Positions 1 through 64,000 of a stretch of 64,000 nucleotides of DNA are shown here, piece by piece; positions within the stretch are counted from its first letter, which is position 1, and each line of letters begins with the position of its first letter. A program made the translations under genes and the position numbers. The DNA is taken from contig JALJEE010001725.1 in NCBI GenBank assembly GCA_023231475.1, positions 23,868-87,867 of the forward strand, given 5' to 3'. This DNA comes from Seison nebaliae. Lineage: Eukaryota > Rotifera > Pararotatoria > Seisonacea > Seisonidae. The notes beneath the pieces were generated by a model. The model saw only the letters and a list, made by a program, of their open reading frames with translations. It had not been told where the DNA came from and did no database searches.

Positions 1-2872
1 TGTTTTCTTCTTTCGTTTCAATTCGAATTTCTAAAAGAAACCATTTGAAAATCAGACATCTTGTAATCGATTAGCGAATCTATGTGCTCTCACCTTATAC
101 GATATGAAGTCCATTCCTTGTAAAGAATATACGTCGTTGATGGTCAAAGAAAATTTATTAAAGTTATCCGATTTAAATAAATAAGTAATCTGGAAATGAG
201 ATGTGGAAACAGACCAGATTTATTCCCTGAAATACTTTACGAACATCACTCCAATGAGAATATGCAATCGATTTATAATGCTGAATATCAACGAATAGAA
301 ACGAATTATCTCTTTCGACAGAGTAAGGCTGATGTTTAAATTATGAGAATTATATAAATTATATTAATATTTGAATAATTAGTGGAATACCAATGTTCTC
401 AATATTAGATTAGCGACATATGATGAAATGGGTCGATTTATTGGTTTGATTAATGCATTTCATGATGCCATCATTCAATTGTGTGGTGGACGACATTACG
501 GATCGATTTATGCATATCTCTTCGGAAATAATTATCGACAGAAAGTTCACATAAAATCTTCAATTTCTTTAATTTCTCATTCTCAACTTTTGTCAGTGTC
601 ACATCAGTTACGACTGGTTAAAGAATCATTCGCCAAATACTCTATTTTTTGATGCATGTTCCATTTGTGATGTTGTTTCTCTCTTATTTCAATATATTTC
701 TCATTAATAGATTTAGAGACATATGAAACAGATAAGAAGTACAGTAAAAGAAAGAAACGAAGTAGTAAGAAAGAGACTCGGAAACTTTATCCAATTTTAG
801 TTAAGATAAAGAACGGCGTTCAAAACATAACACAATATACGAGACGATTCTTTATTATTGATAAAGTGGGAGGAAAAGATCGTTATGGAACTTTCAAACG
901 AATAAGATATGCTAAAAAAATTAAAATGAATATCGAACTAGTTCGTCAAACGAAGAACACTTCAGCTTTCATTTATCCGATTATGATGGAAATTGAATAT
1001 GCTTCGTTCAATTCCTCCAGGACCTATCGATTGGATGAGACGACGGAAGTGATGTTTGAAATGGAATATAAAATGAATTTGAATTGGTTCTCAATTCCAT
1101 TAATCATTTTTCTCGTCATCGGTTCCATCATTGGAATAAGTATTGGAATTTTCAAATCGATGAATTGGAAGAAAATGGATGGGAGAGAATTGCCAGACAT
1201 TCTGGTTAATTTTCTTCTTTTCTTCATTTATTTCATTTCTTCTTTTAGGTGTTAATCCGATTTTCCGTTTATTCGATGGGTTTGATGGCCGATGCCATTT
1301 TCCTCATTTTAATATCTGTCGCTTTCTGGTATTTGATATTCTTTAAAAGACAAGACGTCGCTTACGTCATGTTGCCAACTCCTTCGCAGATGTCATTATT
1401 TAAAATTACTTTAATTATTTGTCTTATTTGTAAAACGATGGAAATTATTCAACTTTTATTCTCACAAATAACAATCGACATTTTCTTCCTCGATTGGGAA
1501 CGATTGAATTTGGTGAGTTCGTGCAGCGATGCTGGAGATCGGAATATTAGATCAGATCCACATGATATGAAGAATCATGTGTCAGCATGGAGAACATATT
1601 TCATAGTCCACGAATGGATCAATTTGCAAACGAAGAGGAAAGTTAATTTGCCGATTCATTTGTTTATTCTTCTTTTCGTTTTAATTGTTAGATATTTGTC
1701 TCCTTTCCTTTCCTCTCAAACTTCTTCATTTATAGATTTGTGACATTCAAAAATATTCGACTTCCGATCCAACATTACAATCAAATGAATTGCTAGCAAG
1801 TGCTCCTTATCATTCACTTTTACGTTTAGCTGTCGGTTTAACGATTTTCGTCATTTTAGGTTATATTCTCTTTCAAATTTTTCTTCTCCAATATTTTTTT
1901 TATATTTTTTTATTATATATTTTAGGAATCGTTCTTTGGATGATTCAGAGATTTATTGTTGAATTATTTATTGAAAATCGCTTAGCTCGATTTGTTGATT
2001 TGTGTATGTTGACGAATATTTCCCTTCTCATATTCTCTCAACGTCGAATGGGATATTATATTCATGGAAGGAATGCTGGACCTACAGCTGACGGCAATAT
2101 TGAAGACATTGCATTGACCATACAACAGGAATCGGAAGTTTCAAATTATTGTTAGTTGGAAATGAATTAATGTAAAAACAAATTAGAGTAAACGAAATTT
2201 GAAAGGATTATTCCCAAAAAAATCCAATCAACAATCATTCATCGTTGTTCTTACAGAGCATTTTCGAACGACTTATGAATCATTCTTAAATAAAGCGAAT
2301 GATTCACATTTGTTCAGAGAAGATATTGGTCACATACGTGCCACATCTACCTCGTTCAGGAATCGCATCCGAACTTATTATCGCTTAAACAGTTTCCTCC
2401 TTCGATTTATCAATGAAGGTGCTCGATTAACCAAATTGAAAAGTAAGAAAGCCACTCTCATATATTCCGGTCCACATTATCGAAGTTGGATAGAAAATTT
2501 ATTAAATGTTCAATTTCGAGATGCTTGTCGATGTTCCATGTTTTATTGTGGTTCCATTCTTATTATATTATTGTCGAGTTAATTCAATTCTTAATTGTAG
2601 ATGATGAACGTCATTTTGATAATGTCATTTGGTATGGAAATGAAAGATGTCTCTTTATCTGGAATGCCATCATCTTCGCTCTCACTGATTATTTTGCTCA
2701 CAGTTATCTAATTGCCGCATTCGTTTGTTGGCTCTTAAACTATGTTAGTTTATTCTCTCACCTCACCTTCACTTCATCATTCATCGATCAGATATTGAAC
2801 CTGATTCGCATCTATCTCGCCATCTTCAATCTACAACGAACAACTTTAGTTGATCCCCGATTCGTTTTCTGA
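1..2872 (+). CDS. TMEM67: Meckelin (TMEM67/MKS3), 5' end cut by window
   Basis: Meckelin is a multi-pass membrane protein of the ciliary transition zone. The reading frame enters the window around position 44 (CNRLANLCALTLYD, compare human CQALGNMC) and runs to the stop at 2870-2872. Landmarks recalled from human meckelin line up in order: a TRRFFIID-like strand near 850, FWYLIFFKRQ, SQITIDIFFLDWER, VSAWRTYFIVHEW, RFVDLCMLTNIS, GYYIHGRNAG, IWYGNE and the C-terminal TLVDPRFVF. Introns placed by frame and homology start near 1205, 1687, 1860, 2151, 2534 and 2743. The one at 2151-2186 is only 36 nt, and all start GTT. The first 850 bases contain at least three more introns whose edges are less certain. 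The N-terminal signal peptide and most of the Cys-rich region lie outside the window. Identity is firm; the 5' exon limits are not. Confidence 0.93.
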
Positions 2873-3098
2873 ATTGCAATACCTCAATAATTTTTTTAAT
2901 TTTTCCTATTTTAGCAATAAATTTCCTTTTCTCAAACTATCCACCCATTATGCTCATCAAATGATGGTTTTGTGTATCAGACGTGACTTTGAGAGTGACG
3001 GAAGCCTCACACAATAAAATTATTAAAAAAATTTAAAAAATATATTTCTGAGAATTTCAAAGAATATTTTTTAAAAATTTAGCTTCAATCCAAAATAA

Positions 3099-4039
3099 AT
3101 GGATCATAATCCGTATGATAAAAAAAGATCAATATCGATCGATGAATCGAATAAGAAGAAATTAGGAGAGGAAGAATTGGAGAAGTTATGTGAATGTGTT
3201 TACGATGATGATTTGAAGAGTATTCTCTTCTCATATTTCCGTCATTCCAATCAAATGGAATCATACGGGAAAGCGGTTATTGATGGAGTGAGATTGCCGG
3301 CACCTATTAACTTCACCAATAACGATCCACCACAAGTTCTCATCGCTGAATTATTGAATGAGTATATGGTGTCACAAGAGAATATGTTACTTTATTATCC
3401 TGTACAATTGAGTGAAATCGGTCAACTTTATAATTATGATTTATATTTGCCTTCGGAGAAGAAAGTTTTATTTCATTTCCATTTCTATCATATTCATTCT
3501 TCTTTTGTAGGCGAATGATCTCTTATTTACACATTATTTGAAAAATTATAAAAAATGTCTCGACTATCTCGCCACAATGAAACAGAATCGATCGAGATAT
3601 CGAACTTTAGAAATTATGAGACTATCCGCCGATACCAAGTTACTCATTTATTAAAATTACTCAATAAATTCTTCTCTTCTTCCTTCGTTATTATTTCTCG
3701 TTTTTTTTCCTTTTTTTTCCTTTTTTTTCCGTTTGAGAAGAGATTGAGTAAATTTTTAGGAAATTTTTTTTTTTGTCATTTAGTCAATTTTAAGGAATAA
3801 TTTCGAAAAAAAATAATGGGATGTGATATCTATAAATAAATTTATTTGGCAGATTAGTGAATTACGATACAGCGAAAAAGAATTTATTGGAAGATAATTT
3901 CAAAAAGAGGAAATTGGCAGATTCGAACTATTTCCAAATGATGATGAGAGAAGCTGACAGAATTACAATTCTATCGAATCAGTTAACGGTGGATGATGTG
4001 CCATCGTCGGCTCTTTCGTCGCCAACAAAGAGAGAATGA
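3099..4039 (+). CDS. LisH-like protein, CEP20/OFD1-type candidate
   Basis: Three exons (about 3099-3466, 3514-3637, 3854-4039) join in frame into a protein of roughly 240 residues. The first intron begins GTTTTA and the second GTTACT. The segment IAELLNEYMVSQENMLLYY followed by SEIGQ has the spacing of a LisH motif as in CEP20/FOPNL (INELIREYLEFNKYKYTAS, then ESGQ) or OFD1. The rest is charged and helical, and it ends in a Ser/Pro-rich tail. LisH proteins of this kind work at centrioles and basal bodies, which would fit the meckelin gene 226 bp upstream on the same strand, but neighbourhood alone proves nothing in an animal genome. The third exon is placed only by frame compatibility. The long T-rich second intron (about 3638-3853) could hide another exon. 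Confidence 0.5.
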
Positions 4040-4064
4040 AAGAAGATTTTGGATGAAATAAATT

Positions 4065-5798: not shown

Positions 5799-6266
5799 TT
5801 AAAAAAAATTAAATTAAAAAATTAATTTATTCTACTTTTCCCATAAGCTCATTATTGGAATATGATGAGAATGGAAAAGCTTCCTCTCAACTCCATTCAT
5901 CCAATCTCCATATAAGGCTTACGTCATCTCAATTAGATTCATCTCTCTCATTCAACTCGATGTAATTAAACTGAAAAATTTTATCAAAATTACTTTCATC
6001 CACCATTTCCAGATATAAATACGTAAAAACAACTCGATTATTTCAATTGTGATCGTTTTAAAAAATGATAAATATTTGACAATTCTCAATGTAGTTTTGA
6101 GTTGGTGAAATTTCAATTGACATTTTGAGAAGGATTGAGAAAATTTGTGTATGATCAACAAAAAAGTTTATTAACTAAAACATTTAAATTTCAGATTTGT
6201 TATCAGCCAATCGATTATTAGTTAAAAGAAAAACATGTTTTTAAGCAGATGAGGCAAAAGAAAAAC
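5799..6266. other. Intergenic, CDK12 promoter side
   Basis: This gap lies between the CDK12 start codon and the stop of the next minus-strand gene. A T-rich ORF in 5952-6161 has biased, hydrophobic composition and no recognisable motif, so I treat it as non-coding. It presumably holds the CDK12 promoter and the 3' UTR of the pseudokinase. Confidence 0.5.
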
Positions 6267-13420: not shown

Positions 13421-13970
13421 TGATGATGGTGATGATGATGATGATGATGAGAATAAAGAAAATAAAAATTTTTCATATAAATTGCCAAGTTAAATTTTCC
13501 TAAATGAATTTTGAGGAATTTCAATAATTTTCTTTAGGAATCACGTTGAATATCGCAGATGCAGTGGACAATTTCCGATTATCATTAAATCCGAAGAAAT
13601 CGAACGTCGGTTTAACTCCGTTGGCGATTAATGAACCTCAACCGGGTCAAAAATATTATTTATTCGAAGCGCTCAACAGTATTCCGATTTGGCAGAAGGA
13701 AAAGTTTTGGTACCAGATCTTTTTGGAATCGTTAGACAAAGATTATTCGTTGAACAAATTGAAAAGTATTGATATTCCAAAGAATGAATTGTTGGTGGAA
13801 ATGAAGTTAATTTTTATATTGAACAAATTTGAAATTTATTGATTATGTTGGATAGAAACATTGTTGGATATCAGAGGAAATTGAATGTGGACGAAGAATT
13901 GATCGACGATTTCCTAGATCATGCCACGACACAATTCAATATTGAATTGGAGGAATTGGGAGAATATTAA
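9556..13970 (+). CDS. KIAA0513 homologue (SBF2-domain-like protein)
   Basis: Four exons: 9556-9754, 11409-13488, 13538-13805 and 13856-13970. Two blocks match human KIAA0513 as I recall it. In exon 2, TVFSRLQQHFSLILFQCYE followed by KCFSYYTY corresponds to ATFYRLVQSFAVVLFECHQ followed by MCFTYYHI. In exon 3, YYLFEALNSIPIWQKEKFWY corresponds to IYLYTHLKQQPIWHTLRFW. KIAA0513 is a cytoplasmic protein of poorly known function, reported mainly in neurons and related to the SBF2 domain of MTMR5/13. The protein here is about 880 residues, roughly twice the vertebrate length. The extra sequence is an acidic, Asn/Asp-rich, probably disordered linker between the blocks. Intron 1 is 1.65 kb and starts GTAAGT, a rare canonical donor in this window. 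Introns 2 (49 nt) and 3 (50 nt) start GTT. The choice of first exon is less certain than the rest. Confidence 0.75.
9755..11408 (+). other. Long intron 1 of the KIAA0513 homologue
   Basis: At 1654 nt this is the longest intron placed in the window. It starts GTAAGT and ends in a T-rich tract followed by TTCTAG. It contains three perfect copies of a 12-bp unit at 10861-10896. No coding sequence was recognised inside it. Confidence 0.55.
10861..10896. repeat. 12-bp tandem repeat, three copies
   Basis: The unit cagtcaacgagt is repeated three times without mismatch inside the long intron of the KIAA0513 homologue. It is GC-richer than its surroundings. Confidence 0.85.
13306..13451 (+). repeat. 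GAT/AAT trinucleotide repeats inside coding exon
   Basis: Runs of GAT and AAT codons in exon 2 of the KIAA0513 homologue encode poly-Asp, poly-Asn and again poly-Asp. Length variation would change the protein without shifting frame. Confidence 0.85.
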
Positions 13971-14418: not shown

Positions 14419-15225
14419 TTAATAATATTGATTTTGTTGTTGTTGACTGGGTGCAGAGATCTCGGGTGTAGTCGATGGTGGTATAGTAGCCATATTGTTT
14501 GAGACTGCCGTAACTGATTTATTATCGTTGACAGCATAAGCATTGGGACGACTTGGTGTGGCGGTGGCACTGGATGAACTGAGAAAGTTTCCTTTCAATC
14601 CCAAAAAGACGAGAACACTGCTAGCGATGTAGAGGAGCATAGCGAGAACGCAGAAGAACTTTAGTTTTTTGATAAAAAAGAAATTAAATAAAATGTGTTA
14701 AAAAGATTATTATTAACTGCCGTTGCAATGGCGGAACTTCGTTTATATCTGAATTTGTCTGCATCTACACTGGCAACGATGAGACATACGAAGTAGAAGA
14801 AAGCCCAAACTGCTCCAATGGCTAATTCCTGGAGAGATGGAGAAAATGAAAAGATGATGAAAAGAGAAAAAGTTGATGGATTAACAATTATGGGCCATGG
14901 AATCTTCGTTTGCCATTTAGGGACAGAGAATAAATAAAGGAAAAAGAAAGCCAATGTCACCAACAATCCGACGACGGAAGTGAAAATGATGAAATTCCTA
15001 TTAGTTGTGACGACCATCGTCGCTGCACAGATCAAGATGATGAGATTGAGCACCTGCATTCGTTTGAAAGATGAAGACGATTATGATAGAGAGAGAGAAA
15101 GAAAATGGAACCATAAAGAAGATTTTGAAGATGCCCATTCCGGTGGTGAGGAAACATTTGTCGAAGACCGGTTTCGTATAGATAACACTAGCCGGTTGAG
15201 TGACCTGTGGTGGCGATGAATTCAT
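14419..15225 (-). CDS. MARVEL-domain four-pass membrane protein
   Basis: Four exons join in frame to about 205 residues. A cytosolic leader (MNSSPPQVTQPASV) is followed by a helix starting near GMGIFKIFFM and running into VLNLIILICAA, a second helix FIIFTSVVGLLVTLAFFFLY, a short loop ending IPWPIIE, a third helix AIGAVWAFFYFVCLIVASVD and a fourth helix FFCVLAMLLYIASSVLVFLG. The tail is Ser/Thr/Gln-rich. The WP-x2-E motif before helix 3 and the ALYxxAS-like end of that helix are typical of MARVEL proteins (plasmolipin, CMTM, MARVELD1), which organise membrane domains and vesicle traffic. Introns start GTTCCA, GTTAAT and GTTAAT; two are in frame and could be misread as coding. The ATG at 15225 is the first good start. 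Confidence 0.75.
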
Positions 15226-16737: not shown

Positions 16738-18507
16738 ATGGAAGGCAATTTGAGTAAAGCGGGTGTTAGTGCAAAGTTTATGAATCATGTCATATTATAA
16801 TCAATCATTCTAGATTCATGATCGTCATGTCATTGAAGATGTTCGAGCGTTAACTAACAAATATCCAACATTGGCTTTCAATATATCAGTGGACAATTAT
16901 GGTTAGTTCATTCTCTCACATATTCCATGTTCATGAGTTATCATGTCCTTCCAGTAATGAATAATGGAGAGAATGCCCTACTATTTCGATTAAGGGGAAC
17001 CATTCCAATTAATTATCAAAGTTTACATAAATTTCATTTAAAATGAACGAAATATTCTAAAGTGAAAATTTTTTATTTTAATAGGAGCTCAATATAACAT
17101 ACCGATTGCCATATGGCTACCGAAACGATATCCGAATGAACCGCCAATATGTTATGTTGAACCGACGGCATCGATGAGAGTGCGAGCAAATGAAATTGTC
17201 GAATTGAACGGTCGTATTTATTCGCCACTTATCCGTTCATGGCGGAAGGTTCATCTTCAAAATGATTCGAAATGAAATTCATCCTGAAATTAATTTCTTT
17301 TTTTTTCTTTTCAGCAAACTAAACTCACACAAGTCGTCGATGAATTCACCGCCAAATTCAGTATAGCACCACCTGTCTATAGTCGAAATAGTGGACAAGC
17401 ACAAGCACAACAACAACAACAACAACAACAGTATCAGAATAATTACAATCAACCACCATATCCATCAACATATTCTCAATATCCTTCAACTGTCAATCCT
17501 TCGTCGAATGTGTATGGATCACAATTTAATTCCAATTCGCCTTATCCACGTTCCCCATATTATCCAACACAGAATCATAATATGTATCCTGATCAACAAG
17601 CACATGCAAGTCGAAATACATCGATGATAGAGACACAATCATTACGAGAGGCAGTCGAACAGAAATTGAAAGAGAAGATGAGACAAAAATTCTCAGAGAA
17701 TAATGCCGTCATCGAATCGTTGAAAGATACAGAGAAGGAATTGACCGTTGGTGCCAATATCATCAAATGTCATATAGATGAGATGGAGAAAGAGATTGAG
17801 ATAGTGAAAGAACAGAATGAGAAAACGGTCCAAACAATCCACCAAGTCAATAAGAAGATTAGCGAAATGAAAGAAAGTGACAAGATCGACGTGGAGAAAA
17901 TCGTCATTACAACCGCACCAGTATACGATCAGTTTAATATAATTATTCTCAATTTCCATTAGAAATTTTCTTTCGTTTGTAGATTGTTGAATTTGTTCGC
18001 TGAAGATAATGCCATTGAAGATATGTTGTACAATTTGGAGGAGGCGTTAAGAAAGCGAATGATCGACCATGAAATTTATTTAAAAGTTTTGTACGTTTTT
18101 TTTTCATAATTTTCGATCAAAAAATTTATCCCACTTAAAATTTCATTTAAAAAAAAAAAAAAAAAAATTTCTCGATAATTTCTTTTTTTTGTCTTTTCAT
18201 TTTGATTTCATTAATTTGTCATCATCCACATGTGAGAAGAATATGAAAAATTATCGTTATATTATTTCCATTCGAATTATTCTGGTATTATTATGTGAAG
18301 TTCCATCTAATAATAATATTCGTTCCATTTTCGCACATTCCACAAAATACTCATTTTTCTCATTCACTTCTTAATTTATCCAAATTTACAATATTTCTCT
18401 TTTAGCATGTACGAGAATTATCGCGACGACAATATATGGTGAGACAACTGATGAACAAATGTAGAAAGGTGGGCCGATTGCCACCACTCACAATTATACC
18501 CAATTGA
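16738..18507 (+). CDS. TSG101: TSG101, ESCRT-I subunit
   Basis: TSG101 binds ubiquitinated cargo and recruits ESCRT-III partners at endosomes. Seven exons are placed by homology: an inactive E2-like UEV domain (RGTIPINYQ, IPIAIWLPKRYPNEPPICYV, LNGRIYSPLIRSW), a Gln/Pro/Tyr-rich linker with poly-Gln, a coiled coil (about residues 200-290) and the C-terminal steadiness box (LLNLFAEDNAIEDMLYNLEEALR, then HVRELSRRQYMVRQLM). The catalytic Cys of E2 enzymes is absent, as in the family. Introns lie at 16765-16813 (49 nt, GTTAGT), near 16901, 17021, 17249 and 17932, and at 18086-18405 (320 nt). All begin GTT. The start MEGNLSKAG is a little shorter than the human N-terminus. Identity is firm. Confidence 0.93.
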
Positions 18508-34169: not shown

Positions 34170-35397
34170 TCAGATCCAATGCATCATATTTCTTTGTGCT
34201 TCTTGAAAATTCTCAACACTTTTATCAGACATTAATAATTCTTTCCATCCAATGTTGCTACCACCCGGCAATCGGTAACATCCGATATTCGTCGTGAAAA
34301 TGTGTGTATTTCTCACGAACAGTTGTGATTGTAGACAACCGGCCGCTGATTGTTTCACGAATGTGGGCATCATGAAAATGATGGCCAATTCACAATAAAT
34401 GGCATTTGATGCCGATTCCAGAATGATATGTTCCGGCTTCGTTGCTAAAAAAAGAGAGAGACGAATAAAATAAATAAAACTTCATAAAATAATTTCATTA
34501 ACCGTTTGAAATGACTTCTTTCCCCACCGTCGAATTATCAATTGTGATAGTGAAATTGAGAGTTTTCGTCACCGTCTCTTGCGTAATGTCCACACACAAC
34601 AATTGATTCATTGATAATAATTTAAATTCGAGTTTTGCACAACATTTACAGATATTGGAGAGACATTGACATTTTGGCAATTCGTCATCCAACAACGACT
34701 TCGTCACGTTAAACGTGGGAAAAATTTTCTTTGTCTGATTTTTGGACATGCGGAAAATGGAGTCGATAATCTGTCGATATTTGGGATCGGTATCTAATAA
34801 ATTTGGTTCGATATGTGGAAATGATAGTTTGAAGGCGTCAGAAATGCGTCGAATATGATGTATTTTGTCATCTTTGGCACGTTGTGCTTCAGTTCGATTA
34901 TCACCACGATGTCGAAGATTGTGACGGATTTGCTTCATATTTGACATAGTCGTCAATTTAGCTATATGGACTCTGGGAATGACGATCTTTTTGGAAAGAT
35001 CTTTCTTCACATTAGATGGAATCACCGGTTCCAAATGCAACTGATGATCCTCGTCTGGTGGTGCCGTCTCCTTTTTCTTATTGATAATTTGTGGATTGTT
35101 TTTTGGTGGATGAATTTGATCTATCATCTTCTCGTGTATTATTGCGTCGTCGTCGATTGGGGAATGATGATGATGATTTTGAGCCTGATGGAATTTGTTA
35201 TTTGAACGTGTTAAATTTTCATTCGATTCATCAACTTTCGAATAGAAATAAATGGCGATGACAATAAATCCGAATAATAAGGTAATGATAATTGAGACTT
35301 TCTTCTTGAATCTCATCTTCCCTCCTCGATGATGCACATTCAATGGTTCTCGATGATGATCGATGGAATCATCTAAATTCTGCAAACGAGTATACAT
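34170..35397 (-). CDS. DUF4773-domain membrane protein
   Basis: Two exons (34503-35397 and 34170-34444) are separated by a 58-nt intron starting GTTAAT. The ATG at 35397 gives about 390 aa. A basic cytosolic stretch (MRFKKK) precedes one membrane helix (VSIIITLLFGFIVIAIYFY, about residues 33-51). A His/Lys-rich linker follows, then the C-terminal domain with CQCLSNICKCC, LLCVDI, LNFTITIDNSTV, YCELAI, GCLQSQLF and IGCYRLPGG. The CxCxxxxCxCC start, the LxFxIxxN strand and a closing CxRLG-like motif are the pattern of DUF4773, an extracellular domain known mainly from arthropods. Function is unknown. The protein is probably a type II membrane protein with the domain outside the cell. It is divergent from AHI1, with 477 bp between start codons. 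Confidence 0.72.
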
Positions 35398-35874: not shown

Positions 35875-38800
35875 ATGGCGAAGAAATCATCGAAATTAAA
35901 TATGGAATATTCGTCGTCGGATGAGTCGATGAAAGTTAATGAACGATTATCGATTCAAAAGACAAATGACGAAAATAAGAAGTTTGTAAGTTATACGAAA
36001 AAAAAGAAGAAGAAAGCGAAAGATGTAGATTTTGGTGGAGAGGGCTATGACGTATCGATAAACGTAGAAGAGAAGATTGAAGGAATAATTAATAAGAAAG
36101 AATCTCATAGTAGCAGAATACGAAATAGAGTTGTTGCTGATGACGAAGAAGGAAATAATAAAGGGAATGTATTCTGTATCGTCGTCCATCGAACGACACA
36201 AATGTTGAGTAGTTTAATTTTACAGAATCCGAAGGTTATCATCACTCTAGTCGATACAGAAACGAAAGGTTTATTAAAGAAACCAACTTCAAAAAATATG
36301 TCCAGTCAAACTAATCAATATATCGAGCAGTTGTGCACCTCACCAGCTGACACACATGATATTTGCCATCAACGGTTAATTATCATATTCTTAATAGAAA
36401 TTGAGTTAATGATAATTTCATTTCGTTTTCTAGACAATTTGAATGGAATGAAGCTCTAATAATTCCATATGATTATTCATGGATAACTCAACGGGAAACT
36501 GATATATTTGTCGTATGTGAAATTGTTGGCACTACTCCCAATGACGAACAAACGACTAATAACTATTCGATTGCTTGGGCTTACCTCAAACTCAATCAGG
36601 AGAACGAACAATTGTATCGGTTTAGTCGCGTACCATTACAACTCTACTATCCGAAAGGTTCGAGAAATCATCTAGCTAAATGGATCACCGATCCAATACA
36701 AAAGAAATATCCGGCTACACTCACAATTACCATCAAATCGATTGAACGATTTAGTGAGAAGATTAGTGATCAAATCAATCAAATGAAATGTAAACAAGAA
36801 AAGGAAGCACCAGCTGAAATGAGTGAAGATGACGAAACGGAGAAAACGGAATCAGTTCCAGTAGAAGAGGTTGTGGAAGAAGAGAAAAAAATTGAATTTA
36901 GAAAACGTCGATTAGGAGCTGTACGATATGTGCCCAATCGTGAATTCATCATATTTCCCTCCTCTCTTCATGGATGTACCAGTTTACGATTCTCCAATAA
37001 CGGTTTATGGATCGCTCTCGGTGTTGGTATCGAATCGTCATTCATTATTCAACTTTATGATGTAATTTCTGGGAAATGCTTAAAAGAATATTCTGGTCAT
37101 CATTCCACAATATATGACATCCAATGGTCATGTACAGACGAGTATATGATGTCCGCATCTGCTGACGGTTTAGTGAGAGTGTGGCAAATTCATGAGGGAG
37201 AACCAAAAGACAAACCGAACATTTTATTCAACACTTTCCCCATCGCAGTTTGTAGTCATCCGAAATTCATTTATTCAGTCATCTTCATCGAAGATTTAGT
37301 GAAGAATCAGATTATTATAGCGTCCGCTGGTTTCGATCGAACCGTTCGCTTATGGAGAATTAGAAAAGGTGATTCCTGTGCTGATTTATTGCAAGAATTA
37401 CTTCCATCAACTGTCGGCCACATTAACACCATTTGTTATGTGAAGAAATTGCGAGCCATTTTTTCCGGCGACTCAACGGGTGGTGTGAGAATGTGGGTTG
37501 CTGGTGGAAAGGATTGGACTCATAAAGGTGATATTATGGAAAAAGAGTTGAATGGTATAGAAATAAATCACATTTTATATTGTGAGAAGAAACATAAATT
37601 AGTGATTGGTGTACGTGATAATATTATTCGATTGTACGATTTGGCAACTAATCGAATTTTTCAAAAATTTTATGGTGGAAGAAACGAAGAATTTCTCACT
37701 CGAGGTACTATCAGTCCTTGTGGCACTTTCCTCTTCTTCTCCACCGATGACAATTATGTGAATTGTTGGAATATTGATACGGGTCAACAGATTTGTACAT
37801 ATCAGGAATTACATTATCCCAATCCTGTAACTGCTATCCATTTCCATCCGTTTTATGATCTGATTGCATTCGGATGTATCGGTTCCAATCAACCCGCTGT
37901 CATGTATGAATATAATATAGAGATCACTGCAAGAAATATGGGTCTCACCACCGAAAATGAGAATGAAACTTCCACCTATGAGAATGTGGCGGCTAATCAT
38001 GAATTAGAAGGAGTTCGAAAAGGAGCCGTTGTCCATACCAAAGTGACAAATGCCGACAGTCCATGGCTACCTTTTCCCCATCTCTCTCCTTCATTACTCG
38101 GGTTTCTTTTATCCTTTCTTTCCTTCTCCTATTTCTACGATTTATCACAAAAAAAACTTTAGTTATAAAGAAAACGTGGAAAATATCAATTCCGATTTAA
38201 AATTACAATTCTACGAACCAACAAAAAAATTCGCTAATCAACAAGTCAAACGAATTGAGAAAGTTAAGCAAATGTTAGATGCGGTCGATGTTAGTATAAA
38301 AAAAAAGAAAAATTACAGAGAACTTTTAGAAGAAAACTATTTAAAAAAAACTCTTTCACCAAATCATTCCCATTCAATCCACTTAGGCCATGTTTGAAAC
38401 GCGTCATGGCGGCTCTGGGAAATTGTACGGAACGGGAACGATGTATAAAGAAATTTTAAAGCTAGGAACACAGGATCCAACTCTACTGGATATCGGTAGT
38501 CTCCATTTGCCATCATATGCCATTCTCAGTTATTATCCATACGTTTTACGATATAACTACCGAACGAAGAAGATGAAAGCTGAAGTAATTTTGAGAATTA
38601 TTTCCAAATCTTTTTTTTTAATTTTCTTTTTATTTCCATTTAATTTCTTTCTTTTTTTTCTTCCGTTACGTTCCCTTTAAATACTTTATCTTTCTATTCG
38701 ATCATATAATGAGATTTATGTCTTCTTTTTAGATCAATTATTTCGATAAACGGAAAACTACGTCAACACATCAGAGACATGCAATCTTCACTCCCATGGG

Positions 38801-39083
38801 TAGACAAGGAGCGATGATTAACATCAATCTGAAGAAGCAAGACGTCTTCGCAACTCAAATGGAACCGATAGTGGACAATAATCTGGTAACGGCAATAAAA
38901 GACTATGTTGGGGAGAATGTGAACGAATTAACATTTGATAAAGGACAGAAGATTTTGGTAATTCATAAAAATAATGTGAATTGGTGGTATGGTGAATTGG
39001 TGGAGAAGAACGGAAATAAAATGAGGACACATCAATTATTGAAAAGAACAGGATATTTTCCATCGAAATTCGTCAAATGTTGA
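35875..39083 (+). CDS. AHI1: AHI1 / jouberin, WD40-SH3 ciliary protein
   Basis: Jouberin acts at the ciliary transition zone and basal body. Five exons: 35875-36374, 36434-38101, 38163-38289, 38387-38584 and 38733-39083. The N-terminus is Lys-rich with charged repeats. A C2-like region follows (VFCIVVHRTTQML, QFEWNEALIIPYDYSW, IAWAYLKLN, VPLQLYYPKG), then about six WD40 repeats (GHHSTIYDIQWSCTDEYMMS, DRTVRLWRI, GTFLFFSTDDNYVNCW, HFHPFYDLIAFGC). A linker precedes the SH3 domain (VTAIKDYVGENVNELTFDKG, NWWYGEL, GYFPSKFVKC). All these blocks occur in the same order in human AHI1, which has long Lys/Glu-rich N- and C-terminal extensions that are shorter here. Introns are 59, 61, 97 and 148 nt; three start GTT and the last GTAATT. 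The ATG at 35875 is preferred over any upstream non-ATG start. Confidence 0.92.
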
Positions 39084-40192: not shown

Positions 40193-40812
40193 ATGGAGAC
40201 ATATGGTGAAGTAAAAGAATCACTAGCGAGTCAGGATGACGATGACGATATCGCCCGTAAATGGATAAGTGAAGTGGAAGTGACGAAAACTTTCGATGTA
40301 CCACCAAGTATGTTCACTTCCATCGATTCATTCGTTAAAAATGAATTGGAGAAGATATCGTTACAATGGGATTGCGAGTTCGAATATTTAATCCAAAATT
40401 ATTTTTAGATTAATTTTTCTTTAGAATTGATGGAATTTGTATGGCGTTCGATATTGTACATATAGATCGACAATTGCCAATAATGGAAGATTATGCATTC
40501 GGATTGGTGAATGTGATAGTGAAAATGTTCCGATTCAATCCCGTCCTCAATACAGGTCCTGTCAAAATGACAATTACAGAGACGGATGATCTCTGTCTTC
40601 GTTAGTGGATTTGATTCGTTTGGAATTATTCTTATAAAAAATCTATTTTAGACGGACGAATTCTCAATGCATTCGATACGATTTTGTACAAAAATTCGAC
40701 AGACACTCAAAATTTTAAAAGTTATTTCATCGACGATGTGATCGACGTAAAGATATTAAGATTTGAAGAAACGAATCAATTCATTACGTTTCATGTGTCA
40801 TTTTCTCAATAA
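40193..40812 (+). CDS. POLR1F: RNA polymerase I subunit RPA43-like
   Basis: Three exons (40193 to about 40379, then to about 40601, then to 40812), joined across introns starting GTTCGA and GTTAGT, give about 170 aa. The centre resembles the SHS2/Rpb7-N half of RPA43: DGICMAFDIVHIDRQLPIM, then FGLVNVIVKMFRFNPVLNTG. It continues into an OB-fold stretch, LCLHGRILNAFDTIL, comparable to human LVHGCFNASI. RPA43 pairs with RPA14 in the Pol I stalk and contacts initiation factor Rrn3. The protein is half the length of human RPA43, with no basic C-terminal extension. Assignment rests on short motifs, so another Rpb7-family subunit is possible. Confidence 0.5.
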
Positions 40813-44775: not shown

Positions 44776-45564
44776 TCAAAAAAAATGTTTATTCAAATTT
44801 TTTTTTTTCAAAATGTCCACATGTTTCCTACTAATTCATTCGGCCACATGTGTATACTACACTTCTTTTTCTTATATATGCGTACATATTTATTCAACTG
44901 TCTGTCTGTGTGTATATTTGTGTATATTTGTGTATATTTGTGTGTGCGTGTGTGAGAGAGACAGGAGGTGAATTGAATTAAAATAATTTTGTGTTTCATC
45001 AGAAGAAAAATCCTGAAATTTTTTTGGAATTATTAATGATCGTTATACTCTTGCAGTTCGTGGAGAGGAGAATTTAAAGTGAATTCTATTCCATAAGATA
45101 ATGATTCATATTGTGAGAGAATTTGTGAGAAATGGTTTGATGATTTCCTCTTCTTCCTCTACTGTCTGCCCTGTCAATAAGAACGTCTGTCTTTGTGATG
45201 AGAGGGAATATGAAGAATGATGATAAAGAACAATTATTTATATATATTTCAATTCTATTTTGTCCACAAGAGAATAGAGTTAAACAAACTAGTAAAAAGA
45301 ATTCGTTTCTAGAATTGATATACAGTTGTCTTTGTCAAACTCTGATAATGTAACTGAACAAACAAATAAATAAAATGCTAGACTGCCTATGATGAAATGT
45401 ACGTGTATTTTGTGGATGGGCACGTGTAAAAATAAAGAAAGTTCGCCAATTTCCAAATGGATATGAACGATGAGATCAGATTGAAGAAAATAAAAAGAAA
45501 ACGTTGAATATTAGAAGTTATTTATAGAATGTTCGATACCTAATAGATTAATCCCTTATTTACT
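44776..45564. other. Intergenic with TG-rich repeats
   Basis: This gap holds the ZDHHC23-like promoter and the 3' side of the Thr-rich gene. TGTGTATATT units and a TG run lie at 44908-44955. No supported gene. Confidence 0.45.
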
Positions 45565-46085
45565 TCATTCATCTGGTACGTGGTGGAGTGATGAATTTGA
45601 ATTTTTTTCCGCTTCCATCATTTTTCTACCAATTCCTTCAATCGCATTTGGTAATTTTTCATTCTCCATAATAATTCTACTCGTTAGTGTTCTTCCAATT
45701 CTTCCACTTGTACTAGTAGTAGTAGTAGTAGTAGTAACAGGATTATTCATAAAAGAATTGGATGGTGTGACAACGACAGTTGTTTCTACCGGAAAAATTA
45801 TAATTGTTGTCGTAGTCGACGTATTAGTGATTAGAGGAGTTACTTCTTTCATTAAAGTAATGAGTTGTTTTAATCCGGTCACACTTGTTGTTGTTGTTGT
45901 TGTAGCAGTGGTGGTAGTAATAGTAGTAGTAGTAGTAATAATGGTGGTGGTTGTTGTTGTTGTTGTTGGAGGATGAGATGTTGTAGATGTCAAAGAAACA
46001 TTAATAAAATGGGGAGATGTTTCATCTTTTATTAATTTCGTCGTTATCGTCCTTATTATTATTGTTGTTGTTGTTGTTGTATTAA
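45565..46085 (-). CDS. Thr-rich mucin-like exon
   Basis: This open frame runs from near 46085, with no ATG at its start, to the stop at 45565. Most of the first 85 codons are Thr, encoded by ACA/ACT/ACC in (GTT/GGT)n microsatellites. A less repetitive part (TGLKQLITLMKEVTPLIT) and a polar tail follow. Poly-Thr blocks in animals are often O-glycosylated mucin-type stalks, but the sequence could equally be a microsatellite that happens to stay open. It may be a 3' exon of the membrane-protein gene just upstream (46268-46510). Not recognised. Confidence 0.35.
45880..46080. repeat. (GTT/GTA/GTG)n trinucleotide tracts
   Basis: Several imperfect trinucleotide runs lie in and beside the Thr-rich exon; on the minus strand they read as Thr codons. 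Confidence 0.8.
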
Positions 46086-46267
46086 TTGGTGATAATGTGC
46101 TCTATATATTGATGATTGGAGAGAATGAAAATAGAGAATAAAACACCAAAAAAAAAAAATATATTCTTTATTCATGATATTATTATGATACGTAACATAT
46201 CAATATCGCACGTGGAAGTTAAATGAAAATTATTTTGAAACGATTTCCTCTCCCCACATCTTTCTCG

Positions 46268-51569: not shown

Positions 51570-52166
<597 letters not shown>

Positions 52167-52225: not shown

Positions 52226-54262
52226 TCAAATACATTTTCTTCTTTGACATGTTCTCTGAGAATAACACGAGATTTTTGGACACCATTTCGGACATTTACA
52301 AACATTCGATTCACATTTGCTCAGACATTTCGTCTTCAACAAATAATAAAAGAGTAGTAACAATAGGAAAAGGATAGAGATGATTCCCATCATTTTAATA
52401 TAAGACCAAAAATCTTTTTTATCGCGATTTCTATGCTGGTTTTTATCTTGATCTCCATGTTGGTTTTTATCACGATTTCCAAATCGGTTCCAATCTCCAT
52501 TTCTATGTCCCTTTTTACCTTTTTCATTTATTCCTCGTTTTTTTATTGATGATTTTTGATTGTGAGCACCGTTGTTTCTTAATGTTGTGGTTTGAGAAGG
52601 TAGATCTTTGAAATTTGATGACGGTAATGGTTGACATGGTGATAGACAGAAAGATTTACATGGATCAGGACACGGGTATAATGGCGGACATGATGGTTTA
52701 CATATCGGTTTAGATGTTGGTGGACAGAGTGGTACACACGATGACTTACATGGCGGTTTGCATGGTGGTGGACAAGGTGATCGGTAAGGAGGTGGACATG
52801 CTGGTTTATATGGTGGTGGACAGAGTGGTTTGTATAGTGGTGCACATGGTGACGTACACGGAGTTGAACATTGTGATTTACATATTGGTTTACACGGGGG
52901 TGGACAAGGTGGTCTGCATGATGGTGGAGATGGTGATTCGCAGCATGGTGGACATGGTGATTCACAGGGAGGTGGACATGGTGGTCGGTATGGCGGAGGA
53001 CATGGTGATTTACATATTGGTTTACATGGCGGAGGACAGGGCGATTTACATACTGGTTTACATGGTGGAGGACAGGGTGATTTACAGGGAGGTGGACATG
53101 GTAATTTACAGGGTGACTTACAGGGTGATTTACAGGGTGATTTACAGGGTGGTTTGCACGGTGGTTGACATGGAGGAGGACAAGGTAACTTGCATGGTGA
53201 TGGACATTTTGATCGGTATGGAGGTGGACAGGGAGAAGAAATGTCTATAACCTCGCAACATTCCTTCGGCTTAATACACGAATCCATCGGACATCTTATA
53301 TAATTCTGTAGACACATATCAGTACAAGTATTAGCGCAATTATTCAAATTTTCTCGAATGGCTTTCAATCGCATTTGTCTTTTATCTTCTTCCGATATTC
53401 CACAATAATCAGATGAGTTAACTATGATAATGTTTTCATGGAAAAATTGTTTGAGTTTAACTCGAATACCAGTTTCGTTCCGTTCACAAGGAAATGAGAA
53501 GCAGTAACATCCCGTTGTATGACAAGTAGATACGCATTGACAATTACTTATTGAAGTACAACATTTTATACGAGGACATGGATCACAACATGATTTGCGA
53601 CAATTATATGGAAAACATCGGATACAGGAAGGTTTAGCGCAAGCACACATATTCCGATTGCGATAAACACATGAACTCCGACCGTTATTATTACACGGAT
53701 TACAGTTTCGTTTCAAAATCGGTTTCACACATCTATCATCACTCTTGCAACATTCATCTTGTTCATTGCATTGAGGAGTGGCACAATTCTGAAAGAGTGT
53801 AGGCAAATCATTTAACATATCTAATGTCTCTAAAATTTCCTTAAGGAAATAATTGACTTCATAGAGATATGTCCGTTTTTTTCGATCACAGAAGAATAAT
53901 TGCATTCTCCTCAATATAGTTAATATTCTCGTTAAGAAATCGATTATTCTCGTACCGTTATGATTTGTCGATACATGATATATAAGAATGTGCATATATC
54001 GTTCGATATTCACTATTGGAATTAATGGGATAGTGACTTCAGCTCCTGGATGTAGTTCGATGTTATTAATCCTATTGAACAGTACTTCGATCAAACTAGA
54101 TAACTTACAAAATTGAAGTAAGCAATTCTCTAAGTTTAGTAGTTGTCCATGCTTCACTCTCACTATACGAACAATGTCCGCCACTAAATAATAGGTAGTA
54201 TTCGCTATCTGATGCAACCATTCATTCTCCACCGTATTATATTCGCTATCGCTGATAAACAT
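52226..54262 (-). CDS. Cys/Pro-repeat membrane protein, unrecognised
   Basis: This intronless gene encodes 678 aa. A non-repetitive helical N-terminus (about 1-165) is followed by a Cys-rich zone with many paired Cys (CDPCPRIKCC, CQCVSTCHTTGCYC) up to about residue 335. A long array of PCxPPC/PPCKxPC units (about 345-550) follows, then a polar linker of NRDKNQH-like repeats (about 590-610), one strong membrane helix (MMGIISILFLLLLLFYYLL) and a 36-residue tail with nine or ten Cys. There is no signal peptide at the start. The PCK array recalls late cornified envelope, metallothionein-like or cuticle-associated proteins by composition only. The C-terminal anchor suggests a tail-anchored-like topology with the repeats on the cytosolic side. 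Divergent with ELP4, with 175 bp between starts. Confidence 0.7.
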   Translation of the reverse strand: MFISDSEYNTVENEWLHQIANTTYYLVADIVRIVRVKHGQLLNLENCLLQFCKLSSLIEVLFNRINNIELHPGAEVTIPLIPIVNIERYMHILIYHVSTNHNGTRIIDFLTRILTILRRMQLFFCDRKKRTYLYEVNYFLKEILETLDMLNDLPTLFQNCATPQCNEQDECCKSDDRCVKPILKRNCNPCNNNGRSSCVYRNRNMCACAKPSCIRCFPYNCRKSCCDPCPRIKCCTSISNCQCVSTCHTTGCYCFSFPCERNETGIRVKLKQFFHENIIIVNSSDYCGISEEDKRQMRLKAIRENLNNCANTCTDMCLQNYIRCPMDSCIKPKECCEVIDISSPCPPPYRSKCPSPCKLPCPPPCQPPCKPPCKSPCKSPCKSPCKLPCPPPCKSPCPPPCKPVCKSPCPPPCKPICKSPCPPPYRPPCPPPCESPCPPCCESPSPPSCRPPCPPPCKPICKSQCSTPCTSPCAPLYKPLCPPPYKPACPPPYRSPCPPPCKPPCKSSCVPLCPPTSKPICKPSCPPLYPCPDPCKSFCLSPCQPLPSSNFKDLPSQTTTLRNNGAHNQKSSIKKRGINEKGKKGHRNGDWNRFGNRDKNQHGDQDKNQHRNRDKKDFWSYIKMMGIISILFLLLLLFYYLLKTKCLSKCESNVCKCPKWCPKISCYSQRTCQRRKCI
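52680..53240 (-). repeat. PCK-type coding repeat array
   Basis: The DNA is built from about 12- to 24-bp units encoding PCKxPC and PPPC. The variation between units indicates expansion by slippage or unequal exchange. The array shows up on the plus strand as long Gly/His-rich open frames, which are shadows. Confidence 0.8.
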
Positions 54263-54437
54263 AAGAGTAAAAATGAAAATTAAAATTATACTGAAATTAT
54301 AGTTGGAGCAAGTTCCATTCTCCTTCTCCTCTCATATATATATAGTTCTCTCATTCCATTAATTTCCCAATTCCCTTCAAAATTATTCCTCTCAAATAAA
54401 ATATTCAAATTTTAGGCTTAATTTAAAAATTTCAATT

Positions 54438-55675
54438 ATGGTCATTATCTCAAAAGGTGCGAAAATTGTAGATCATTTATCTGAGGTTACGGGAAGATGC
54501 ATACATCCTAATGGTCGTTTACAATTAGTATCATCAGGAATATCTTCCTTCGACGATATATTAAGTTATTTTTCTCAAATTATTTCCAACATATTCTCTT
54601 ATTTTGGATAGATGGTGGATTTGCAATCGGTTCAACCATCGGAATCAGTTAAATAATCTCATTTTCATTCAATTCAAACTCGTCTTTAGTAAACGATCAA
54701 TATGACATTTATTCAAGACGCATTCTAAAGTATTTTATGGCTGAAGGTATACGACAATCTCATAATATAATTCACATATCATTCTCGGATGAAGATACCA
54801 AAAAAGTTTTATCTTTTATACAAATCGGACTTTTTTCTAATTTTTATCTTTTTCAAATTAGATTCCAAAACTTTTTAAAAATCTCAACAACAACAGTAAT
54901 AAACAGTCTCAAAATGTACAAGGGTATTTGAAAAATTTGAAAAATAAGAATAATTCGTTGATAAATCTTAAAAAGACAAATGATAAAAAGGAAGAGGAAC
55001 TTTTCAATTTCGATGATATCCTTCTGCTCGATCACTATGAGAAATATCATGAAATTCGATTATTGGACGATGTGAAAATGTCTCTCACCTTTTTTTTTTC
55101 GAAATTAATTTTAATCTGAAATCTCAGAAAGAATTATGAGAATGTTCTAGATGAATTGGAGTCGTTATTGAAGGAACTCAATTGTGGATTTATAAAGGGA
55201 ACAATGAAGAAAGGAAGAAAACGAGAGTTTGTTCGAATTGTTGTTGATGATATTTTTGGAGATGTGCGAGGTAGAGATAAATTTGGGAAAGAGAATTCGG
55301 AGAAGTTCCTTCTCCGATTATCTGGTGTCATTTCAAATGTATTAGCAGTGGGTTGGATAAGATTGAATGAGAAAATGCAATTTATCGATTATCTCTTCCA
55401 AATGGAATCGATTGATGAGAAGAAAAATTTTGATGGAATCATCTTTTCCATTCAGTCGCCTCGTCTCCAATCCATCAATTCAGTTAGTGAGATAATTGAT
55501 AATGATCGATGTCAATTTGTTTTCAAAAATAAAAAGAATCGATTTTTGATTGAAGTTCAACATCATTTCTCCACTTCATATGTTCAATTCGTTTCATTTT
55601 AGAGATATCGCTTACAGCCAAATGTAGATGATGGTGAAGGAGAAAAGATTTCAGAAACGTTGAATGAATTTTGAA
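54438..55675 (+). CDS. ELP4: Elongator complex subunit ELP4
   Basis: ELP4 is a RecA-like subunit of the Elp456 ring, needed for Elongator tRNA wobble-uridine modification. Six exons are placed by homology. NGRLQLVSSGISSFDDIL matches human NGQLLVSTGLPALDQLL. GGFAIGST, the degenerate Walker A region, matches GGLAVGTV. YDIYSRRILKYFMAEGI matches YNIYSPLLFKYFLAEGI. Later FVRIVVDDIFGDVRGRD corresponds to ILRIGIQNLGSPLWGDD. The C-terminus ends ISETLNEF. Introns start GTTATT, GTTAAA, GTTTTA, GTCTCT and GTTCAA. The one beginning GTCTCT (near 55079) is one of only three non-GTT donors placed here. Total about 320 aa, somewhat shorter than human (424 aa). Confidence 0.85.
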
Positions 55676-57315: not shown

Positions 57316-57874
57316 ATGTCGAGTCAGATGGCGAAGAGGAAAACGACAAAGAAGCGAGCTCAACGCGCAACGTCTAACGTATTCGCGATGTTCGACCAAG
57401 CACAAATTCAAGAGTTTAAGGAAGCGTTCAATATGATTGATCAGGATCGTGATGGATTGATAAGTAAAGAGGATTTGCGTGACATGCTCGCCTCGTTAGG
57501 CAAAGAAGTGTCTGACGAATATTTAGAGGAGATGATAGCGGAAGCAAAAGGCAGTATTAATTTTACGATGTTTCTCACTCTCTTTGGAGAGAAGTTGAAT
57601 GGAACTGATCCAGAAGAAGTCATTCGAAATGCTTTCCAAGTTTTAATTCAAATCTTCTTTTTCTATTTTTCTTTTTAATTTTTAGTGTTTCGATGATGAT
57701 AATTCGGGAAAGATCAATGAGGAACGTCTCAAAGAGTTATTATTGACAACGGGCGATTATTATACGGAAAACGAAGTGGAACAATTGTTCCATGAAGCAC
57801 CGATTAAGGACGGCTGGTTCGATTATAACGAATTCACTAGAATAATTAAACACGGCAAGAAAGACGACGAATAA
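57316..57874 (+). CDS. MYL12: Myosin regulatory light chain, non-muscle type
   Basis: Two exons (57316-57639, 57686-57874) with a 46-nt intron starting GTTTTA encode 170 aa, the usual length. The N-terminus [15 protein letters not shown] carries the Thr19-Ser20 pair, the conserved site of myosin light chain kinase and Rho kinase (vertebrate Thr18/Ser19). EF-hand 1 is intact ([12 protein letters not shown]); the others are partly degenerate, as in the family. The C-terminal lobe reads [20 protein letters not shown] and ends [11 protein letters not shown]. It binds the neck of non-muscle myosin II and controls contractility and cytokinesis (fly spaghetti squash). The ATG at 57316 is preferred because it gives the standard N-terminus. 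Confidence 0.94.
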
Positions 57875-62120: not shown

Positions 62121-62238
62121 ACCATATAACGAGGAAAAGATAGAAACTTAAAGGAAAAGTAGAAAAGAAAACTTCTCCCCCCCACACTTTTCCATCAGTT
62201 TTATACTATTAAAAAGAAAAAACCGGAATTGAAACTAT
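62121..62238. promoter_or_regulatory. Compact divergent promoter region
   Basis: Only 118 bp separate the start codons of the 1356-aa gene and the IR-type receptor. It contains a short C run (62178-62183) and A-rich sequence. No specific site was identified. Confidence 0.4.
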
Positions 62239-63749
62239 ATGGAAACGCTTAGTTTCATGGAAAAATTTCGATTTGTTCTTCGAAATTCATATCCTTATCA
62301 TTATCTTTCTAATGACAACTCGACGATTCCTGTTTTAATAACATCCAATAATCTGTCATCAGTTCAAGGATTTATGATTGATATCATCAAATATATTGCG
62401 GATGATTTACAATTTAAGTTTCAATTCTCTTAATTTTATTAATACATAATTTTAATAATTATAATTTTATCAATTTTGTTCCAGATATGATTTCCTCATC
62501 CTACCAAAGAACATTTCAGTTGGAATCGAAAATGCGGAAAAGACGCATTTGACGGGGATGTTGAATGTGATAGAAAAAAGAGTTTTTTTTCTTCTTTCAA
62601 AATTCAAAATGTATTATTAAATTTTTTGTATTAAAAGTCGAATTATCTCGCTGGAACGGTGGCGAATACGATAACACGAGAGAAATATGTACATTTCCTT
62701 TATCCAATTTTAACATATGGACTTGGCATTCTCATTCAGAAGAATTATAAAGTGAATGATATTATGGGTGATTTGTTTCGCGTATTCTCCATTTTCCATT
62801 CAACTGTCTGGATCTTAGCAACTTTTAGTATTCTAATAGTTTTAATTGTCTTATCATTATTGAATAAATCGGATAAAGATCAGTCAAATTGTCTCTGTTA
62901 TTATATCCCAATAATCTTCACTTATTCAGGTTAACATGGAAATTGACATCTTTCTCAATTTTGCTTTAAAAAGACACTTCTATTTATCGAAAAAGATTAA
63001 CAGTACGTATCGTCCTTTTATCTTGGGGGATTTTCGTTCATTTATTTCTCATTTTCTTCATCGCCAAATGGACTGCCATGTTCACCATACGTCAAACTAG
63101 ACCATTAATATCATCATTAAATGATTTGATCAAACACGAAGAAATCACTTTAGCTGTCGAACAAGGGAGTAATACTGAAGAATTATTATTCGTTAATTTT
63201 ACCAATTTCCCAATTTTCTTTTAATTCTTTATATAGACGTTAAACTTCGAACCGTTCAGTTCGTTAAAGAAACGTGTAATTTTCTTTCATTCTATCGATG
63301 ATTGTGTTCAACAAATGAAGAAACAGTCGATTGTAGTAGTAGCCGATTATTCGACGTTACAACCAATTTGGAAAGAGTTTTGTGATTTAGAATTGATTCA
63401 AGAACAAAATGTATTTCAATACAATTCATTCGCTGTCGACAAAACTTTCATTTACACTGACATCTTTCGTCGAACTCTTCGACGAATGGATGAATTTGGA
63501 ATAATGGAACGTTTAAAAAAATCGTATTGGACAATTACCAAAAGTCGACCGATATGTCATCGAAATTTCTTTGATCCCAATCAAACAAATCGATTAATGG
63601 ATGGAAGAGAAAAGAGAGTATCTGAAGCTATATCTTTCTGTCATTTATCAGGAATTTTTACTTTTATGCTCTCCCTTTATTTCATATGTGCATCGATATT
63701 AGTTGCGGAGAAACAATTGAAAAAATATTATTCAGTACAACACGACTAA
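62239..63749 (+). CDS. Ionotropic receptor (IR)-type glutamate receptor homologue
   Basis: Five exons with introns starting GTTTCA, GTTTTT, GTTAAC and GTTAAT join to about 415 aa. There is no large amino-terminal domain: it begins with ligand-binding lobe S1 (FRFVLRNSYPYHYLS, SSVQGFMIDIIKYIADDLQF). The ANTITREKYVHFLYPILTYG segment follows, equivalent to the sites of iGluR S1 end where agonist Arg and Thr reside. Then come TM1 (TVWILATFSILIVLIVLSLL), a pore region, TM3 (HLFLIFFIAKWTAMFTIRQ, like SYTANLTAMLTVRR), lobe S2 and TM4 (GIFTFMLSLYFICASILVA). Lack of the N-terminal domain and a degenerate SYTANLAAF motif place it with the divergent chemosensory IR family of protostomes rather than synaptic AMPA/NMDA receptors. 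Function as a sensory cation channel is inferred. Confidence 0.75.
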
Positions 63750-63802
63750 AGCACTGACAAAATCAATAGCAATCAATATATTGATTAACATTCTATTACA
63801 AA

Positions 63803-63955
63803 TCAATTTTTTTCACATACATTAAACATTTCGTATTGTGGCAAATAAAAGCTTATGTTGTGTGGAGATGTTGGTTCGGCACCTTGTCCGGTAGCCGTCC
63901 CGTCAGATTCTTTGCCATCGACGTTCAGTTCTTTCTGGCTTGACTTACCAGACAT
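63803..63955 (-). CDS. Small 50-aa ORF, unrecognised
   Basis: The ATG at 63955 opens 50 codons ending at TGA (63803-63805). The sequence is polar, rich in Gly/Ser/Glu (MSGKSSQKELNVDGKESDGT), and clearly GC-richer than its surroundings. It closes with SFYLPQYEMFNVCEKN. A GTAAGT lies only six bases after the ATG; if used as a donor, the rest would be intron and the gene would be different. It could also be a first exon of a longer gene, with the apparent stop inside an intron. No family is recognised. Confidence 0.4.
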   Translation of the reverse strand: MSGKSSQKELNVDGKESDGTATGQGAEPTSPHNISFYLPQYEMFNVCEKN

Positions 63956-64000
63956 AGTGCACAAAGATACAATATATAGAAAGGGATTTTATTTAATATT

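Follow-up and report, generated by a model that had tools for sequence, protein, structure and literature searches.

A probable swap of the U1 nucleotide 6–donor +3 base pair in the rotifer Seison nebaliae

The 5′ arm of U1 small nuclear RNA (snRNA) is among the most conserved sequences in eukaryotes, and in the standard pairing its nucleotide 6 faces position +3 of the 5′ splice site (donor). A change in this arm should be costly, because thousands of donors presumably depend on it at once. Seison nebaliae appears to have changed the arm and carried the donors along, perhaps via duplicated U1 genes. Donors and U1 genes were analyzed in a stretch of 64,000 nucleotides (nt) of this species (contig JALJEE010001725.1 of assembly GCA_023231475.1, positions 23,868–87,867 of the forward strand; termed the window) and elsewhere in its genome. 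The base pair between U1 nucleotide 6 and donor +3 has very probably been swapped, and U1 and donors now match. The case is one of U2-type splicing with a respelled U1. In work of Zhuang and Weiner from 1986 a compensatory U1 base change is said to suppress a donor mutation; that U1 was a laboratory construct, whereas the Seison state is natural and genome-wide. We are not aware of any further natural example in which a base of U1 and its partner base in the donors have been altered jointly genome-wide, and no report on Seison U1 or donors is found among the matches listed in the open-licence literature.

Entamoeba has the donor consensus GTTTGT (PMC4053983) and thus resembles Seison in having T at +3. 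However Entamoeba is reportedly without U1 snRNA and its U1 proteins are thought to read the donor (PMC13292270), whereas Seison has at least four U1 genes with the matching change in three. In another animal, Fritillaria borealis, donors have also changed genome-wide, and most introns are non-GT/AG. The 5′ ends of its two U1 versions are nonetheless identical and conserved, and in the excerpted report the authors write of a dedicated U1 that its evolution “was not the alternative employed” (PMC13326754). Seison looks like the dedicated-U1 alternative that Fritillaria did not take. The diplonemid S. specki has a natural U1 copy with an altered 5′ end beside a conserved copy. Unlike the Seison case, the altered end is a C run, pairing with the same donors is comparable for the two copies, and the excerpted account describes no matched genome-wide donor shift (PMC12621601). 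Donor variation is also tied to the splicing machinery in Saccharomycotina, where 5′ splice site variation is linked to METTL16 and SNRNP27K (PMC10581693); proteins are implicated there, whereas Seison has a METTL16-like gene together with a changed U1. According to a comparative study, in the portion available, previous work had been unable to tie donor variation definitively to U1 sequence (PMC10599564). Seison makes this role of U1 testable: were U1 irrelevant to donor evolution, nucleotide 6 and +3 need not match.

Seison is an epizoic rotifer whose genome and RNA sequencing were reported by Mauer et al. 2021 (PMC8351084). In the portion of its text available, the report describes compact genes, gives no donor consensus and uses the word “splice” once. 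The donor survey presented here covers the window and 20 other stretches of the S. nebaliae genome, each of 10 kb, a total of 264 kb. Eighteen of the 20 stretches were chosen by contig number only, and those on contigs C208 and C647 for their U1 genes. The gene finder has a coding model trained on long open reading frames and predicts GT...AG introns, the GT start and AG end being imposed, under a uniform donor prior, i.e. with no donor motif. In a second setting donor and acceptor matrices were learned and +3 was masked (given no weight). The main donor count is of introns 36–69 nt in length, those outside this range being left out; such introns came from 17 of the 20 sampled stretches.

With +3 masked, T is found at +3 in 139 of 161 introns (A 8, C 7, G 7). 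The purine usual at +3 of U2-type donors is present in 15 of the 161. For comparison, T follows 38.9% of the GT dinucleotides in this DNA overall and makes up 47.8% of the intron interior; against the latter share, 139/161 has a binomial p of about 2e-24. All 25 introns of this size in the window are GTT, as are 29 of the 31 window introns of all predicted lengths; in the sampled stretches outside the window GTT is found in 114 of 136 introns (36–69 nt). The uniform prior gives a similar picture, with T at +3 in 77 of 87 introns of 38–64 nt (A 7, C 2, G 1). Longer introns have T at +3 in 21 of 32 (70 nt or more, masked run), and the longer, noisier classes under the uniform prior show 18 of 30 (65–99 nt) and 8 of 19 (100–150 nt). 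Rescoring without the donor letters, which covered 160 of the 161 introns, left 118 confident donors (posterior >0.9), 109 of them GTT. Set aside were a first finder run (14 introns, nine with T at +3), a loose setting in which strings of spurious introns weakened the signal (T in 603 of 1237, all lengths, last round) and a pairing of long open reading frames that yielded no more than 13 pairs (T 88% weighted, 65% at equal weights). T at +3 in S. nebaliae donors is confirmed as real across the window and the sampled stretches.

A reading-frame artefact, in which the true donors are GTR and lie a few bases off, is almost certainly not the explanation. The finder does misplace some edges: an acceptor in tubulin, probably a donor in PSMA3, and two of the four deposited AHI1 introns, one of which is missed and the other shortened at the length cap. 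However when +3 of the 161 introns was re-lettered at random and the full pipeline rerun, 143 were recovered at the same donor (A 41/47, T 40/45, C 34/36, G 28/33). The finder thus has no preference for T at +3, because re-lettered donors are recovered whatever their letter. The finder rerun within this control script gave T at +3 in 136 of 159.

Deposited protein models also argue against such an artefact. All 865 residues of the S. nebaliae protein SNEBB_010236 (AHI1) map exactly onto the forward strand of the window, and its four introns are all GTT. Intron 1, which is the one missed by the finder, is at 36212–36259 (donor GTA/GTTTAA, 48 nt). Intron 2 at 36375–36433 (ACG/GTTAAT, 59 nt) and intron 3 at 38102–38162 (CGG/GTTTCT, 61 nt) are each the sole GT..AG among four placements, and both are found by the finder. 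Intron 4 at 38290–38732 (GAT/GTTAGT) is 443 nt long in the deposited model; the finder agrees on the donor but ends the intron at a closer acceptor (97 nt). The deposited model in the region 38290–39080 has this intron leading to the C-terminal exon, and its Pfam domains include SH3. A second protein, SNEBB_001132, maps back exactly with seven introns, of which five are GTT, one is GTC and one is GTA, the placements examined having GT or GC starts only. GTT is thus found at 9 of 11 junctions of the two proteins pooled. A GT..AG placement is possible at all 11, and most allow 3–6 placements.

Comparison with homologues of solved structure was read for three of 36 gene models (beta-tubulin-like, HSD10-like and PSMA3-like), which together have 10 introns. 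Seven GTT junctions are seamless, and an eighth GTT donor, in tubulin, fits the homologue after an acceptor shift read by eye; thus 8 of the 10 introns are GTT and fit the homologue. The PSMA3 donor is GTG with a one-residue gap, which a GTT three bases upstream would close. The remaining donor is a GTA at an alignment edge.

The claim in the preliminary description of the window that nearly all donors are GTT therefore stands, by the masked run (139/161), the short window introns (25/25) and the deposited models (9/11). Two of the exceptions it listed do not. GTAATT at 38585 lies inside the deposited AHI1 intron 38290–38732, and at GTAAGT (9755) the frame stays open and the calibrated finder predicts no donor there. 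A third, GTCTCT, had been placed near 55079, and a GTCTCT donor is used in SNEBB_001132. Minority donors other than GTT make up 22 of the 161 in the masked run, 9 of the 118 confident donors and 2 of the 11 deposited ones, and they seem real. The eight GTA donors show no clear difference at their other positions, as judged by eye.

At least four U1 genes are found in the S. nebaliae genome by the Rfam RF00003 covariance model, with scores of 97.4–112.9 bits (gathering score 69.5 bits). They are U1a at C208:8280–8439 (minus strand, 112.9 bits), U1b at C647:4426–4585 (minus strand), U1c at C762:47440–47598 (minus strand) and U1d at C208:6576–6739 (plus strand, 112.4 bits). The RNA-strand 5′ ends read AUACUAACCUGG in U1a and U1b, AUACUAACUUGG in U1c and AUACUUACCUGG in U1d. 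The canonical 5′ arm AUACUUACCUG is found in one of the four genes; the other three have A at nucleotide 6 (termed A6). Their arm is AUACUAAC, where U to A at nucleotide 6 makes it complementary to GUUAGU, and the arm of the fourth, U1d, is the canonical AUACUUAC. U1c displays an additional C9U change in the arm. The genome-wide pattern ATACTNACCTGG occurs at five places, three of which are U1 genes and two (on C92 and C657) are not U1 matches; the backward control gives six. A changed U1, or else a changed intron-definition mechanism, had been suggested in the preliminary description, and the U to A change in three of four genes, with A6 pairing with U at +3, supports the former idea. Contamination as the origin of the odd U1 genes was considered and is unlikely, as canonical and A6 genes are present on one contig, about 1.5 kb apart and on opposite strands in the case of U1d and U1a, and A6 copies are on three contigs.

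The four paralogues are 62%–67% identical to one another. The U1 fold is kept nonetheless, and 15 of 41 predicted pairs are changed on both sides yet still paired. Such compensatory double changes make the paralogues look like long-lived working genes. All four display a Sm-like AAUUU followed by N-U and a terminal hairpin GCG(UUCG or UACG)CGC. The stem-loop 2 sequence AUUGCAC, which we take to be the U1A site, is found in U1a, U1b and U1c; U1d has AGAGCAC there. By model, fold, loop and Sm-like site the three A6 genes are predicted to be U1-like variants with a respelled arm.

A downstream element AATTAAACT is common to U1a–c and also follows U5 and U2a, and the U2b version is AATTTAACT. The downstream sequence AATTAAACTTT matches at 11 of 11 letters at U1a, U1c and U5, at 10 letters at U1b and U2b, at nine at U1d and U2a and at eight at U2c; 165 of 3000 random stretches reach nine or more and 17 reach 10, the motif itself having been derived from these genes. 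The element begins 10–20 bases past the snRNA match in U1a, U1b, U1c, U5, U2a and U2b. In the Seison lineage it probably serves snRNA genes as their 3′ box. A third U2 gene (C796:78598–78799) is clearly diverged (78.7 bits versus 139.1 and 135.4) and has no 3′ element at the usual place. Upstream, the motif GTTCRCACTTTCT is common to U1c and U5, and the stretch TATCACACTTTT is common to U1d and U2a.

It is highly improbable that the A6 genes are pseudogenes, with canonical U1d doing the work and GUU donors being tolerated as in Entamoeba. U1d does have the canonical end and shares TATCACACTTTT with U2a, and in the sources on Entamoeba, as excerpted, GUU donors are spliced without U1 pairing (PMC4053983; PMC13292270). 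However it is the A6 genes that keep the fold, the Sm-like site, the U1A loop and the strongest 3′ element, while U1d has lost AUUGCAC and its 3′ element is degenerate. In addition, three decayed copies would hardly share one change, and the arm of U1a and U1b is otherwise perfect. Probably all four U1 genes work, with A6 as the regular form.

The match between arm and donors was scored by counting Watson-Crick pairs for the 27 single changes at U1 nucleotides 3–11 against the 161 donors. The best single change is U to A at nucleotide 6, with a mean of 5.01 pairs, compared with 4.20 for the canonical arm and 4.44 for the next best change. Of the individual donors, 139 pair better with A at nucleotide 6, eight pair better with U and 14 tie. 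The C9U change of U1c fits the A at −1, and A6 together with C9U gives a mean of 5.21 pairs. A6 U1 small nuclear ribonucleoproteins (snRNPs) would recognize GUU donors through an A-U instead of a U-A pair at +3, and the ideal donor for such a U1 would be CAG/GUUAGU. The roughly 86%–92% of short predicted introns that carry T at +3 would thus be in step with the U1 change. The A6 snRNPs are presumably the main expressed forms and would be the ones that select GUU donors, and U1 and donors would have changed through co-evolution.

The rest of the donor logo (n = 161) shows A 42% at −3, A 57% at −2 and A 45%/G 25% at −1, and downstream T 86% at +3, A 47%/T 35% at +4, A 44%/G 20%/T 17% at +5 and T 48%/A 37% at +6. 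The acceptor is a T-rich stretch followed by YAG. The donor of U12-type (minor) introns is RTATCC. The Seison logo is unlike this, and a U12 search, made without a positive control, gave no match. The commonest predicted intron lengths are 42–53 nt.

The logo bears on the possibility that mutational T/A bias brought +3 to T first and that U1 followed, which is considered doubtful. The introns are 47.8% T and the sampled DNA is 32% G+C, as such a bias would have it. However +4 and +5 have more A than T, so that the T excess of the donor is confined to +3, with the exception of +6. The bias concerns the order of events and not the present match, and is compatible with a swapped base pair.

Another proposal is that the donor shift is due to factors that act later than U1, be it U6, LUC7 or others, with A6 secondary or neutral; loss of a LUC7L/LUC7L2-type protein would then relax the intron side of the donor. 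Only one LUC7 locus is found (C540:21603–22771), with no LUC7L/LUC7L2-type match, and its second finger presumably resembles LUC7L3 rather than LUC7L/L2. The +5 G is also weak. A review, in the part available, states that the cut may be decided by U6 and not by U1, and that donors pairing strongly with U6 lose favor when LUC7L/L2 function is disrupted (PMC11732430); such an effect would fit the weak +5 G in Seison. This proposal is nevertheless improbable. Relaxation predicts a flat +3, versus the 86%–92% T observed, which is far above the 47.8% of the intron interior. The ACAGAGA box is intact in the one U6 copy found, a METTL16-like gene is present, and no other single change at U1 nucleotides 3–11 adds as many pairs as the one observed. 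The METTL16-like gene was recognized by an NPPF motif, which we take to be its mark. The U5 copy found has the loop GCCUUUUAC and U2 has GUAGUA; the U6 and U5 motifs look canonical. Of the proteins to which the preliminary description had pointed besides LUC7, a U1C zinc finger is found. Because the U1C family search matched the E. coli control as well, a weaker second U1C locus means little.

Several observations weigh against a swapped U1–donor base pair or narrow its basis. When candidate donors are equally weighted they are already 79% T, because most introns offer few candidate donors; the donor signal rests on the comparison with the genomic GT background and not on the posterior. The G at +5 (20%) and at −1 (25%), both of which pair with U1, are weak, thus U1–donor pairing is not maximized overall. 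Duplex energy favors G over A at nucleotide 6 (−3.04 versus −2.64 kcal/mol), therefore pairing energy does not single out A. The U1 copy number is a lower bound, as 41 of 293 first-look candidates were scored. U1a and U1b are without an upstream match of the proximal sequence element type above chance; when scored against GTTCRCACTTTCT, U1d, U1a and U1b are all at chance level. Finally the score of U1d (112.4 bits) is close to that of U1a (112.9 bits), therefore canonical U1d may also work.

A plausible path to the swapped pair would begin with U1 duplication and the change of U to A at nucleotide 6 in one copy; donors would then have drifted gradually toward T at +3, and the canonical copy would have been demoted. 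Since three mutually diverged genes share A6, the change is probably not recent, unless it was spread by conversion. U1d probably persists in a minor or specialized role, and it could serve the minority GTA, GTG and GTC donors. A division into two U1 snRNPs is put forward tentatively, as one possibility: three old A6 paralogues for the GUU majority, and the canonical-end U1d, which has no U1A loop, for the GTA/GTG minority or for a job outside splicing, e.g. suppression of premature 3′ ends. If true, an animal would have evolved an orthogonal U1 system naturally, by duplication and stepwise replacement. On the practical side, introns of the Seison lineage may be misplaced when genes are predicted with a standard donor model.

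Other introns of the window were placed by the finder with +3 masked. Four of the genes concerned carry putative labels from the preliminary description. The gene labelled meckelin has forward-strand introns at 334–382 (donor GAT/GTTTAA, 49 nt), 1205–1248 (CTG/GTTAAT, 44 nt) and 2138–2186 (GAA/GTTTCA, 49 nt), and the gene labelled TSG101 has one at 17249–17314 (AAG/GTTCAT, 66 nt, forward strand). The introns in the genes labelled myosin light chain, at 57640–57685 (CAA/GTTTTA, 46 nt), and IR channel, at 63192–63236 (TTC/GTTAAT, 45 nt), both on the forward strand, are found under the uniform prior as well. Further forward-strand introns are at 13489–13537 (CAA/GTTAAA, 49 nt), 13806–13855 (GAA/GTTAAT, 50 nt) and 40601–40651 (TTC/GTTAGT, 51 nt). 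On the reverse strand are those at 14659–14717 (GCA/GTTAAT, 59 nt), 15054–15111 (ATG/GTTCCA, 58 nt) and 34445–34502 (ACG/GTTAAT, 58 nt).

The window also displays a threonine/valine-rich low-complexity tract at 45515–46101 that is open on both strands, and a long open frame on the reverse strand at 52226–54331 that has numerous CPPPC-like repeats and may encode a secreted or structural protein. It also has genes for SLC6 and eIF6 proteins; matches listed for the SLC6 protein in a plasmid collection are only distant transporters of prokaryotes. Genome-wide, SLC6-family transporters show 52 matches on 15 contigs, including several paralogues with introns.

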